Source: Candidatus Sulfopaludibacter sp. SbA3
Lineage (GTDB): Bacteria > Acidobacteriota > Terriglobia > Bryobacterales > Bryobacteraceae
Assembly: GCA_945890485.1 (NCBI GenBank)
Contig: CAMDCN010000005.1
Span: 124,001 to 188,000 of the forward strand
Reading direction: 5' to 3'
DNA: 64,000 bases
Below are positions 9,388-14,667 of this stretch, one piece after another. Under the pieces are notes generated by a model, which did no database searches, was not told where the DNA came from, and saw nothing but the letters and a program-made list of their open reading frames with translations. The position numbers were made by a program, and so were the translations under genes. How positions within the stretch are numbered: position 1 is the first letter of the stretch; each line of letters starts with the position of its first letter.

Positions 9388-10602
9388 ATGCGGGTTTTAC
9401 TGCTGATTCTCGGTTTAGCCGCGATGGCGATGGGCCAGGACGATGATATCGTGTGGCTCGACAACTATGCTGAAGCGGTGAAGGCCGCCAAGGCAACGGG
9501 GAAGCCGATCTTCCTCGAGTTTCGCTGCGAGCCTTGAACGAACGGCAGAATATTTGACGCACAGGTTGTGCTGTCACCGAAAGATTCGCCCCTGGGCAAA
9601 CTGCTGCGGCAGTACGTGACCGTGCGCATTATCCGCATGGATACGATCGATATTGGTCTGTTTGAACATGACCGGAACAACACGATCTACTTCTACATTT
9701 TGAACGCGGACGAGCAGATCTATATGCGGTACGGCGGGCGGGATAACGCGTCGCCCGATACCTACCTGAACATCGAGAGCCTGACGTTGGCCGCGGCTAA
9801 GGGGTTGGAGTTGCATGCGAATCGGCCGCCCGCGCCTCCGCGGCCGAAGCCCGATTTTCCGAAGAACTATTCGCTGCTGGTGGAGCGGACGTTTGCGCGG
9901 AACCAGTGCGTCGAGTGCCACCTGATTGGCGACTACCAGAATCTGCACCGGCAGCAGGATGGGACGCTGGACAAATTGGTGCATCTGTTCCGGTCGCCGG
10001 ACTTGAAGACCGTGGGGATTTTGTTGGATGTGCCGAAGGGGCTGGTATTGAAGGAGGCCACGGGGGCGGCGGCAGCGGCCGGATTGCAGGCAGGCGACCG
10101 CATCGCGAAGTGGGAAGGGACAACGGTGTGGACCTTCGCGGACGTGCAGCATCGCTACAACGAGACGCCGCGGACGGCGAAGGAAGCGAAGTTGACGGTG
10201 GAGCGGGGTGGGAAGATGGTGGACGTGACGATGGCCCTGCCGCCGCGGTGGTGGTGGGCCGAAACGAAGTTCCGGCAATCAAGCGTGGAGCCGCGCTTCT
10301 ATTTCGACGACCGGCCTTTGACGGCGGAGGAGAAGCAGCAGTTGGGGCTGCCGGCGGAAGGATTTGCCAGCATGGTGAAGTATGTGTCGAGTACGGCGCA
10401 GACGATGGAGTTGCATGCCTTGCAGGTGGGCGATGTGATCTCGGCGATCGATGGCAAACGTGTGGATGCCGATGCGCATACGGCATCGCTCTATTTGATC
10501 CTGCGCAAAATGCCCGGCGATTCGGCGATGCTGGAAGTAGTGCGCGGCGGGAAGAAGATTGAGATGCCGCTCAAGACGATCCAGATGAGCTTTAGAAAAT
10601 GA
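9388..10602 (+). CDS. Predicted selenoprotein: signal peptide, thioredoxin fold with C-E-P-Sec, CxxCH, two PDZ domains
   Basis: One reading frame from ATG 9388 to the stop at 10602 is interrupted only by TGA at 9535-9537. Residues 1-17 form a signal peptide. Residues 18-150 look like a thioredoxin-7-type fold (VWLDNYAEAVKAAKATGKP, then IFLEFRC). The UGA is residue 50 and falls in C47-E48-P49-X50, where a thioredoxin has CxxC, so it is best read as selenocysteine. A 9-bp hairpin with a GGU loop lies 26 nt downstream. Further on are CVECH at 174-178, a possible heme or redox site, and two PDZ-like domains near 205-285 and 325-402. Total 404 residues. It overlaps the DsbD-N-like gene by ATGA. 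No Shine-Dalgarno is seen. The alternative, a short truncated gene plus a GTG-started ORF at 9568, would split the thioredoxin fold and is less likely. Confidence 0.82.
9555..9576 (+). promoter_or_regulatory. Bacterial SECIS-like hairpin downstream of in-frame UGA
   Basis: Bases 9555-9558 pair with 9573-9576 and 9559-9563 pair with 9567-9571, giving nine Watson-Crick pairs. U9572 is bulged out and the apical loop is GGU (9564-9566). The loop begins 26 nt after the UGA. This fits the bacterial SECIS rules: upper stem of 4 or more pairs, G in the first two loop bases, loop 16-37 nt past UGA. E. coli fdhF has a similar GGU loop and bulged U, though there the bulge is in the 5' arm and here in the 3' arm. 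It would recruit SelB with Sec-tRNA. Confidence 0.75.
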
Positions 10603-11102
10603 GACTGCTGAGCCTAGTGTTGTTGGCGACGGGATGGGGTGCGCCGGTAGAGGTGCGCGTCGATGATGAGGTCTGCGCGACCTATGACGCGCGGCTGGCT
10701 GGCGACCAACTCGTGGTTCGTGTGCGCCTGGGCAAGGGCTGGCACACGTTTGCGATGGACAATACGGTGCGGGCCGTCGAGGCATTGAAGGGCAAGAAGG
10801 CGCTGAGCGCGGACATGCCGACGAAGGTGGCCGTGGGCGAGGGGCTGACGGTGACCGGGACGTGGAAGCAGACGCCGCCGGCGGATTTTTCAAAGCCGGA
10901 ATTGCGGATTTTCAGTTGGGGATACGAAGGCGAGGCGATGTTCGTCGCGCCGGTGAAGCGCGAGGGAACGGTGGGCAAGGTCGGCGTGAAGGGACAGGCC
11001 TGCACCCCGTCGATCTGCAAGAACATCGACGTGAAGGTGGATGTGGGGATGGCCGATGGGCCGTTGGCGGGTGCGCCCCTCGAACTGGTGCGCACCCAAT
11101 AA
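10599..11102 (+). CDS. Secreted DsbD N-terminal-domain-like protein
   Basis: 167 residues with a short signal peptide (about 1-15) and an immunoglobulin-like fold resembling the periplasmic N-terminal domain of the thiol:disulfide reductase DsbD. It shows GKGWHTFAMDN, GYEGEAMF and a C-terminal pair of cysteines in GQACTPSICKNI, the position of the redox pair in DsbD-N. The DsbD membrane and C-terminal domains are absent, so it is a stand-alone carrier or partner. Its ATG overlaps the stop of the predicted selenoprotein by 4 bases, which argues that the two act together in periplasmic thiol exchange (inference). Confidence 0.82.
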   Translation: MRLLSLVLLATGWGAPVEVRVDDEVCATYDARLAGDQLVVRVRLGKGWHTFAMDNTVRAVEALKGKKALSADMPTKVAVGEGLTVTGTWKQTPPADFSKPELRIFSWGYEGEAMFVAPVKREGTVGKVGVKGQACTPSICKNIDVKVDVGMADGPLAGAPLELVRTQ

Positions 11103-11115
11103 AGCGGCCGGATTT

Positions 11116-11664
11116 CTACGCGGCGGCCAATAACTCCAAGTTGGCCTCGAAGGACTCCAAATGGTTGTAGGACGCATTAAGCAGATTCGCGTAGACGCGC
11201 TTGATGTCGGCCTGTTTGGCTTCGACGATCCCAACTTCCAGATCGGCGATGTCGGTCTTCTCGATGAGAACTCCCACTTCGAGGGCGTCCTTGAGGGAGA
11301 TGGCGACCTTTGTGGTGAGGTCGAAATACATCGCTGCCATCCGGGGATCGGCGAATTCACCGGCGGCCCGGCCAGCGGCCGGATCGGCTAGATTGTACTT
11401 GGTGAGCAGACGGCCTACCTGACGAAAGTGCGCCGTCTCGCTCTGCGCAATGTTGGGGAAAATACGCACGTTCCAGCGTTCCCCGGCGACAGCGTACACG
11501 TCGTGGGCCAGTTTCTCTTCTTCCCGCATCAGAAGCAGGCGGGCGGATTCCTCCGCAGTGAGGACGGCCGGGACATTGCCTCCCCCGGGACCATTCTGCG
11601 CCAGCAAAGGTGCGGCAGCTACCGCGCTGAACCCGATCGCCAACCACTCTCTTCTTGTTCTCAT
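11116..11664 (-). CDS. DUF2202 ferritin-like domain protein
   Basis: 182 residues. The ATG at 11662-11664 was chosen over an upstream TTG because a clear Shine-Dalgarno (AGGAGA) sits 6 to 7 bases before it. The N-terminus has RTRREW followed by a hydrophobic stretch, a Tat- or Sec-like signal. The mature part begins LTAEESARLLLMREEEKLAHDVY, here split as LTAEESARLLLM and REEEKLAHDVY, which is the hallmark of DUF2202, a four-helix ferritin-like fold rich in Glu and His. Function of the family is not established; metal binding is likely. It is convergent with the DsbD-N-like gene, 13 bases away. Confidence 0.87.
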   Translation of the reverse strand: MRTRREWLAIGFSAVAAAPLLAQNGPGGGNVPAVLTAEESARLLLMREEEKLAHDVYAVAGERWNVRIFPNIAQSETAHFRQVGRLLTKYNLADPAAGRAAGEFADPRMAAMYFDLTTKVAISLKDALEVGVLIEKTDIADLEVGIVEAKQADIKRVYANLLNASYNHLESFEANLELLAAA

Positions 11665-11670
11665 GACCAA

Positions 11671-11676
11671 TCTCCT
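11671..11676 (-). promoter_or_regulatory. Ribosome binding site fixing the DUF2202 start
   Basis: Reads AGGAGA on the minus strand, ending 6 bases before the ATG at 11664. It supports this ATG rather than the in-frame TTG at 11682, which would place the site inside the coding region. Confidence 0.7.
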
Positions 11677-11717
11677 GTTCAACTAAACAGATTCGGTTGG
11701 CCGGAGAAGGTGACAGG

Positions 11718-13377: not shown

Positions 13378-14667
13378 TTAGCGGGTCAGACGGTCGAGAA
13401 TTTGCTTGGCTTGGGTGTGGCCGGGATGGAATTGGAGGAGGCGGCGGAGCGTTTGGATGGCCGCCTTTTTGTCGCCGCGTTGCACCTGGGCGGCTGCGAG
13501 ATTGAGCCCGGGGCCGGGGAGGCCGGGGTAGCGGGCGAAGACCGATTTCCAGCGGACTTCGGCGGAGGCGGCCTGGCCGTTTTGCGCTTCGTAGATGGCT
13601 AGGTTGGCGGCGGCGGTGGGTTCGTCCGCGTTCAACCGCAACGCTTCGCGATAGACGCGAACGGCGTCGGCAGCGCGGCCGGCCTGGTCGTAGAGCTGGC
13701 CGAGTTGGGTGAGCACTGCAGCGTCCTTGGGCTCGACGCGTTCGAGGCGCGGGATGGAGGGTTGGGCGAGGGCGAGGTCGCGGGGCGGGATGGGCGCGTC
13801 CCAGAAGAGGCGGAGCGGGCGCTGGGGCGAGGTCTTGCGGCCGATGCGATGGTTCGTGAAGGCGACGTGGGCGTCTTTACTGTCCGTCTTCGGCATGTGG
13901 CAGGTGGCGCAATCGGGGCCACGGCCGCATTTGTCGGGCGTGTGGCAATTTTGGCAGGTGTTGGCCTTCATGCCGCCGTGCGGGTCGTGGCAGGTGACGC
14001 ACCAGAGTTTGTCGCCGGCTCCTTGCTTGCAGGCGCTCTCGGCGAGTTGCTCGGCGTGGTCGGTGGCGTTGCTCTTGGCGCCGCTGACGAAGATGGAGAC
14101 GAAGTCGCCGAGGCGGTCGCCGGGCTTGTAGTCGTAGGGATTCTTGCCGGCGCGGGTGACCTTGGCGGCGCCCGTGAGATGACACTGCTCGCAGACGTTG
14201 TCGCGGCGTTCGGGGGGGAGTTTGGCGGGGTTGACGGAGTGGTGGGAGGCCGGGCCGTGGCAGCGTTCGCAGGAGATGCCGGGTTCGGCGAAGGGCGGGT
14301 TCGGATACTGGTTCTGGGTTCCCTTCACTAGCTTCGTGCCGGTGGTGTGGCACTGGAGGCAGGGCTCTTCGACGGGGCGGAAGGTTTGGGCGTTGGGGAA
14401 GCCGGGTGAAAGGCCGAAGGACTTTGTTTTCGAGAAATAGGATTGCGGGCTCTGGATGAGGAAGTTGCCGATGAAGGAGACGTAGCTTTTTCCGAGAGCG
14501 CCGGAGCCGAGCGACCACTTGCCGGGCGATTCGAGCGCGGCGGTCCGGGCCATACGGGAATGCGACTGCCGCTCAACAATTTCGGCATGACAGGGGGCAC
14601 AAACAGCACTGCCCGGGTCCGCGAAGACCCGGGCAGTGAAGACGGACAGGAGAAACAACCGAAGCAC
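13378..14667 (-). CDS. Secreted heptaheme c-type cytochrome with C-terminal TPR region
   Basis: 429 residues starting at GTG (14665-14667). A signal peptide of about 16 residues is followed by seven CxxCH heme motifs: CAPCH, CLQCH, CERCH, CEQCH, CVTCH, CQNCH and CATCH, with the last group closely spaced as in cytochrome c554-like proteins. The last 120 residues form tetratricopeptide-like repeats (AAVLTQLGQLYDQAGRAADA). Likely a periplasmic electron-transfer protein with a protein-docking tail. Its start directly abuts the stop of the TonB receptor gene, so the two are probably co-transcribed. The electron partner is unknown. Confidence 0.9.
   Translation of the reverse strand: MLRLFLLSVFTARVFADPGSAVCAPCHAEIVERQSHSRMARTAALESPGKWSLGSGALGKSYVSFIGNFLIQSPQSYFSKTKSFGLSPGFPNAQTFRPVEEPCLQCHTTGTKLVKGTQNQYPNPPFAEPGISCERCHGPASHHSVNPAKLPPERRDNVCEQCHLTGAAKVTRAGKNPYDYKPGDRLGDFVSIFVSGAKSNATDHAEQLAESACKQGAGDKLWCVTCHDPHGGMKANTCQNCHTPDKCGRGPDCATCHMPKTDSKDAHVAFTNHRIGRKTSPQRPLRLFWDAPIPPRDLALAQPSIPRLERVEPKDAAVLTQLGQLYDQAGRAADAVRVYREALRLNADEPTAAANLAIYEAQNGQAASAEVRWKSVFARYPGLPGPGLNLAAAQVQRGDKKAAIQTLRRLLQFHPGHTQAKQILDRLTR

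Follow-up and report, generated by a model that had tools for sequence, protein, structure and literature searches.

Selenoproteins in which a Thioredoxin_7 domain with a CxxU active site is followed by PDZ domains are covered by the NCBIfam model NF041199, named 'Trx7/PDZ domain-containing (seleno)protein'. A 2026 inventory lists the Trx7/PDZ family in its Table 1 as CxxU with one Sec and gives a 2008 survey (PMC2398784) as the source (PMC13188914). That marine GOS survey reported a 'putative secreted serine protease MucD' with CxxU, two Sec and 12 Cys homologues (PMC2398784). An entry from 2021 reads 'PDZ domain-containing protein, pfam13899, CxxU' (PMC9402790). Judging by the reviews' cross-references, the 2008, 2021 and 2026 entries appear to describe one family. 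The parts of these descriptions available to us state no function for the Trx7/PDZ family and do not mention a CxxCH motif.

We analysed a window of 64,000 nucleotides from Candidatus Sulfopaludibacter sp. SbA3 (Acidobacteriota). The window encodes a protein matching NF041199 with 417.2 bits (cut-off 300) across positions 2-389 of the 390-position profile, and CxxU lies within Thioredoxin_7, followed by PDZ domains. The first-pass annotation had regarded this architecture as undescribed. A new architecture is ruled out by the full-length match, and CxxU entries for the family stand in the accessible parts of the literature. Based on its sequence, the window gene is an ordinary member of an already named selenoprotein family. 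Less documented than the family itself, in the same parts of the literature, are the strict conservation of CxxCH and the many relatives with two Sec. The features of the locus are as follows.

9388..10602, + strand: Trx7/PDZ selenoprotein gene, ATG at 9388, stop TGA at 10600-10602; NF041199 417 bits
9388..9438, + strand: hydrophobic N-terminus MRVLLLILGLAAMAMGQ, probable signal peptide, judged by eye
9454..9627, + strand: Thioredoxin_7 domain, residues 23-80; Pfam 25.8 bits, cut-off 27
9535..9537, + strand: in-frame TGA, read as Sec50 of C47-E-P-U50 (RCEPU) from the translation and homologues
9556..9575, + strand: SECIS-type hairpin GACGCACAGGTTGTGCTGTC in the coding region, loop GGU (GGT) at 9564-9566, one bulged U
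9907..9921, + strand: CVECH, residues 174-178; C, C and H invariant in 158/158 homologues
10063..10236, + strand: PDZ domain 1, residues 226-283 (Pfam)
10420..10545, + strand: PDZ domain 2, residues 345-386 (Pfam)
10599..11102, + strand: 167-aa DsbD N-terminal-like gene with a C135/C140 pair, overlapping the selenoprotein stop as ATGA

Reading frame and domains of the window protein

The single frame at 9388-10602 (+) translates into 404 residues, with the TGA at 9535-9537 as its sole internal stop. A frame running through this UGA at the position of the second Cys of CxxC had been claimed at first pass, and the translation bears this out with the TGA at residue 50. Under translation table 11, the part behind the TGA is listed as a separate GTG-started ORF (9568-10602, 344 aa). 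Gene calling with table 11 hence yields a 344-aa PDZ protein stripped of its active site. Thioredoxin_7 is recovered at E <= 0.01 in 28/28 members of a diverse family alignment, with the window protein alone scoring slightly below the Pfam cut-off. PDZ_2 (53.9 bits) and PDZ_6 (34.6 bits, cut-off 27 each) both match the window protein over two stretches. The AlphaFold model has a mean pLDDT of 83.3, with residues 49-51 below 50. A fold search returned mainly DegP, DegQ and RseP among the best 50 matches listed. Neither the model nor the matches listed settle the role of CxxCH. A plasmid collection searched with the gene gave no match.

The 2008 name raises the question of whether the gene encodes a secreted protease of the HtrA/DegP/MucD type. 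The PDZ domains do match DegP and DegQ by sequence and by fold. The sequence matches are confined to PDZ residues, however, and Pfam retrieves no protease domain, neither at E <= 1 in the window protein nor among the families listed at E <= 0.01 for the 28 members. The trypsin-like domain that would define such a protease is absent from these Pfam matches, and we consider the protease candidate largely refuted and exceedingly improbable. The name 'MucD', in the part of the 2008 source available, is likely misleading because the protein encoded here has no protease domain.

Selenocysteine machinery and conservation of the TGA

The in-frame TGA almost certainly encodes Sec, and its insertion looks established from comparative sequence evidence. 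The window genome (7.1 Mb, 97% complete) encodes SelB (378.8 bits, cut-off 242), SelA (455.9 bits, cut-off 268), SelD (354.9 bits, cut-off 125) and a tRNA-Sec with the anticodon TCA (70.6 bits, gathering 47). A genome lacking selB or selC had been named beforehand as evidence against Sec; selA, selB, selC and selD are all present. The SelD of this genome (L019, C9:111412-112320) is probably itself a selenoprotein, because its match contains one in-frame TGA.

Across 101 genomes including that of the window, 35 full-length copies with 48-100% identity were recovered and 35/35 contain one in-frame TGA. The position was read in 30 of these (28 by pattern, 2 by translation) and falls at the place of residue 50 in 30/30, with the other five contributing a TGA count only. 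A second collection, overlapping with the 101 genomes, shows the TGA at the same place in 26/26 loci (23 Acidobacteriota and 3 Planctomycetota, the latter at 35-39% identity). The two closest named records, at 93-94% identity, are MAGs labelled Acidobacteria, and several further ones carry the name Bryobacteraceae. Among 396 genomes drawn across the phylum, each with only a few candidates scored, the family cut-off was exceeded by the window genome and by G407, and G303 had a partial match. A TGA is present in all three matches, with one TAG in addition in that of G407. Overall, codon 50 is TGA in 41/41 Acidobacteriota sequences read, and a chance origin is therefore excluded. With the window gene and its relatives, the family gains many Bryobacterales (Acidobacteriota) members that share a conserved operon context (see below).

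Purifying selection acts on the codons before and after the TGA, where substitutions are mostly synonymous. Compared with six relatives, residues 20-49 show dN of 0.014-0.064 and dS of 0.31-1.51, and residues 51-145 show dN of 0.014-0.078 and dS of 0.37-1.07. One 94%-identical relative (L022, identical to L051 and G009) keeps the Sec TGA and has an in-frame TAG at codon 161. This TAG might be a sequencing error or mark a decaying copy.

Sec and Cys forms in Acidobacteriota and Planctomycetota

We surveyed active-site states more broadly using 392 genomes drawn around a Planctomycetota centre. Matches at 1e-35 were found in 123 genomes, with 109 over the cut-off, and copies may be missed because few candidates were scored per genome. 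The surveyed loci comprised 30 loci, four regions (2 Planctomycetota, 2 Acidobacteriota), 80 further regions and the loci from the 101 genomes, the second collection and the phylum-wide draw. The remaining matches of the draw, mostly lower-scoring, were left out. The survey produced 177 gene copies above the score limit and 158 after removal of exact duplicates. These homologues form 150 clusters at 95% identity, of which 37 are Acidobacteriota CxxU, and 52, 24 and 37 are Planctomycetota UxxU, CxxU and CxxC, respectively.

At positions 47 and 50, all Acidobacteriota sequences are CxxU (41/41). The 117 Planctomycetota sequences comprise 54 UxxU, 25 CxxU and 38 CxxC. In the UxxU form, positions 47 and 50 are both in-frame TGA codons (e.g., L108, L111 and L114), and in most sequences one hairpin of the same SECIS type lies behind them. 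Rows with three TGA raised the possibility of a third Sec, which we rejected: the additional TGA falls only a few codons from the start or end of the match and is therefore a terminal or upstream stop. The only residues common to all 158 sequences, with Sec counted as Cys, are C47, U50, C174, C177, H178 and P204. On a rapidly built FastTree phylogeny with 157 rows, position 50 requires 4 changes and position 47 requires 16. Some genomes hold several states, with CxxU and UxxU in G726, and CxxU and CxxC in G492 and G493. In four Planctomycetota loci (L147, L199, L202, L209), two Trx7/PDZ copies lie close together on one contig, and the paired copies in L147 and L209 differ in active-site state. 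An obligate-Sec family had been considered since the 101 genomes contain no full-length Cys form; the 38 Planctomycetota Cys forms led us to drop it. In the accessible text of the literature, we found no UxxU for the Trx7/PDZ family, and the UxxU motifs there belong to other families (PMC13188914, PMC2398784). The UxxU form looks unlisted because the available part of the 2026 inventory enters the family as CxxU with one Sec (PMC13188914).

The active-site state tracks the presence of SelB. Among the Planctomycetota genomes tested, SelB exceeded the cut-off in 16/20 with UxxU, 9/10 with CxxU and 1/20 with CxxC, or 25/30 Sec-form compared to 1/20 Cys-form genomes. The state of one UxxU genome (G610) was read after the test. 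Five of the 30 Sec-form genomes have no SelB above the cut-off, a count that does not take genome completeness into account. Matches below the cut-off mostly have the length of EF-Tu in our reading. The single CxxC genome with SelB over the cut-off (G798, C1:2822687-2824543) may use Sec in other proteins. The CxxC, CxxU and UxxU series with its tracking of SelB provides a natural experiment on the gain of Sec and on the function of a double-Sec thioredoxin site.

Homologues with Cys or U at residue 50 had been proposed as a check, and both forms occur, with the Cys forms found only in the Planctomycetota draw (38). Across homologues, the in-frame UGA is either conserved or aligned to Cys, the pattern by which bacterial selenoproteins are recognized. 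This bears directly on whether the TGA could be read as another residue, either as Trp or through near-cognate read-through. No specific support for such a reading emerged, the aligned residue is Cys in all 38 TGA-free homologues, and tRNA-Sec, SelA, SelB and SelD are all encoded in the genome. The same gene also ends on a TGA stop. We judge decoding as another residue to be very improbable and retain Sec as the residue at position 50.

A bacterial SECIS element is a hairpin located just downstream of the UGA with a G in the apical loop. The window hairpin spans 19-38 nt past the TGA and has such a G in its loop. As a lone sequence it is unremarkable (folding z = -1.18, with 25/200 shuffles folding at least as well), and support thus comes from conservation and covariation across the family rather than from the single-sequence fold. 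For the family survey, the best hairpin after codon 50 was taken from every sequence. The loop lies at +26/+27 in 34/41 Acidobacteriota, 22/25 Planctomycetota CxxU and 47/54 UxxU sequences compared to 2/38 Cys forms. GU in the loop follows the same divide (37/41, 22/25 and 48/54 compared to 2/38). The groups are less sharply separated by a G at loop base 1 or 2 (39/41, 22/25 and 49/54 compared to 17/38). Hairpin energies differ between Sec and Cys forms within Planctomycetota (p = 2e-10), a value taken as direction only because the sequences are related.

Covariation was most evident in the main loop class, to which 92 of the 120 Sec sequences belong (85 of them distinct). Here, 408/425 cells pair compared to a shuffled mean of 347 and maximum of 362, with part of the excess stemming from differences between the two phyla. 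Planctomycetota alone retain the signal (369/400 cells; shuffled mean 336, maximum 346). The stem pair 23-33 occurs as CG, GC, AT and TA. In the same columns of the Cys forms (37 distinct, gapless numbering from codon 50), 28/185 cells pair compared to a shuffled mean of 29.6. The stems in Acidobacteriota hardly vary (270/280 cells, shuffled 270) and are therefore uninformative for covariation. The AGTT loop class (23 sequences, 21 distinct) is not clearly above shuffles, with 68/84 cells (maximum 70) in one register and 62/84 (maximum 61) in the other. Five Sec sequences fall in neither class. The claimed SECIS-type hairpin at a suitable distance is hence recovered at 9556-9575 and covaries among Sec homologues.

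These data also weigh on the reading of the TGA as an ordinary stop, under which the locus would hold either two products, a fragment of 49 residues and a separate PDZ protein starting at GTG (9568-10602), or a gene in decay. The table 11 listing of the downstream half as its own ORF is in line with a stop, and interrupted copies do occur given the relative with the further TAG at codon 161. An ordinary stop is difficult to reconcile with a TGA in 35/35 full-length copies, purifying selection on either side, a Cys occupying this position in homologues whose genomes mostly lack SelB, and the covariation of the hairpin. We regard it as very unlikely. The initial proposals of Sec at residue 50 and of two halves forming one protein are both supported, the former by the machinery, the conserved TGA, the Cys homologues and the covarying hairpin, and the latter by the TGA in all 35 copies and the selection on both sides.

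Operon partner, CxxCH motif and proposed function

The 167-aa gene overlapping the selenoprotein stop is probably a co-transcribed operon partner, as suggested by its conserved position. It scores 19.1 bits with Pfam DsbD_N, below the cut-off of 25, and matches none of the NCBIfam models. Of two partner homologues scanned, L060 reaches 21.8 bits with DsbD_N and L063 has no Pfam family at E <= 0.01. The C135/C140 pair is kept in 37/38 distinct homologues. The partner lies downstream on the same strand in 21/23 named Acidobacteriota loci, and the two named loci without it (L058, L071) sit at contig ends. Considering all Acidobacteriota loci, with some genes repeated, the partner is found in 51/58, five of these 0.7-2.7 kb downstream. 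Of the other misses, four have either flanks no longer than about 1.5 kb (L029-L031) or an incomplete gene (L079, which recurs as L140). No partner homologue was found beside Planctomycetota loci at E 1e-5. Next to the gene in L074 lie genes for a LURP-one-related protein and for a PSCyt2/PSD1 protein. In the window, the DsbD_N-like gene is separated from an ABC ATPase gene by a DUF2202 gene (11116-11682, - strand). L054-L056 have no DUF2202 gene at this place, the ABC gene directly following the DsbD_N-like gene, and the DUF2202 gene may therefore have been recently gained or lost. A multiheme CxxCH cytochrome with TPR repeats (13378-14667, - strand) is encoded a few genes away and is also near in L051 and L054-L056. 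A full DsbD (603 aa) is encoded elsewhere in the window genome, which also has genes for the assembly of cytochrome c.

The CxxCH motif is present in 158/158 homologues read and could be a covalent c-type heme site, which would make the protein a selenothiol-cytochrome hybrid. Such a site would refine the selenoprotein reading rather than oppose it. The invariant C174, C177 and H178 include a His that would be superfluous in a plain dithiol, and H143 (142/158) is a possible distal ligand. Heme c assembly genes in the genome and the multiheme cytochrome gene at 13378-14667 also fit a heme. In 14 sequences, though, D, F or Y stands in place of H143 (one further sequence is gapped and one has another residue), and no well-conserved distal ligand besides H143 was found in the 158 homologues. 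The families listed for the 28 members include no Pfam cytochrome domain. The best 50 fold matches listed are proteases and PDZ proteins, with MamP at rank 50 as the only CxxCH protein. Overall, we consider a heme site plausible at slightly below even chances. MamP is a secreted magnetosome PDZ protein with CxxCH motifs and heme.

We consider it highly probable that the gene encodes a secreted or periplasmic NF041199 selenoprotein with UGA read as Sec and a redox mechanism along the following lines. SelB and tRNA-Sec(UCA) would decode the UGA at 9535-9537, guided by the hairpin within the coding region 19-38 nt downstream. The hydrophobic N-terminus suggests export of the protein. C47 and U50 would form a selenenylsulfide/selenol couple trading electrons with thiol-disulfide substrates, and the tandem PDZ domains may dock a substrate or partner. 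The DsbD N-terminal-like partner would give reducing power to the C/U pair through C135/C140 or receive it, and the full DsbD elsewhere in the genome is a possible membrane source. The invariant CxxCH might serve as a second redox site, either by binding a c-type heme covalently or by acting as a second dithiol. Domains and neighbourhood thus point to a secreted selenothiol oxidoreductase with a DsbD-type partner and PDZ-docked substrates as the most likely function. More tentatively, we suggest as a conjecture short of probable that Trx7/PDZ proteins are selenothiol-heme hybrids and that those of Planctomycetota moved to a diselenide-capable UxxU (54/117 sequences), with the Cys forms found in genomes having no SelB above the cut-off (19/20 tested). 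If true, such a hybrid would link the one-electron chemistry of heme to the two-electron chemistry of selenium in a device outside the cytoplasm. The operon context and the double-Sec branch are worth specialist attention.

Among known systems, MamP resembles the window protein, itself probably secreted, by combining PDZ with CxxCH. The match covers the PDZ stretch only, at 43 bits compared to a cut-off of 300, with no thioredoxin domain or Sec matched. NF041199 shares the same full length, CxxU and the order of Thioredoxin_7 then PDZ, with no difference found for the window gene. The family's entry as CxxU with one Sec, in the available part of the 2026 inventory, leaves out the UxxU relatives (PMC13188914). 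The 'MucD' of 2008 has CxxU in common as far as the accessible description goes, whereas the window protein is without a protease domain (PMC2398784). The locus recalls DsbD in that a thioredoxin-type domain is found beside a redox protein that resembles DsbD_N and carries a pair of Cys. Unlike in DsbD, these are separate genes here, the active site contains Sec, and PDZ domains and CxxCH have been added.
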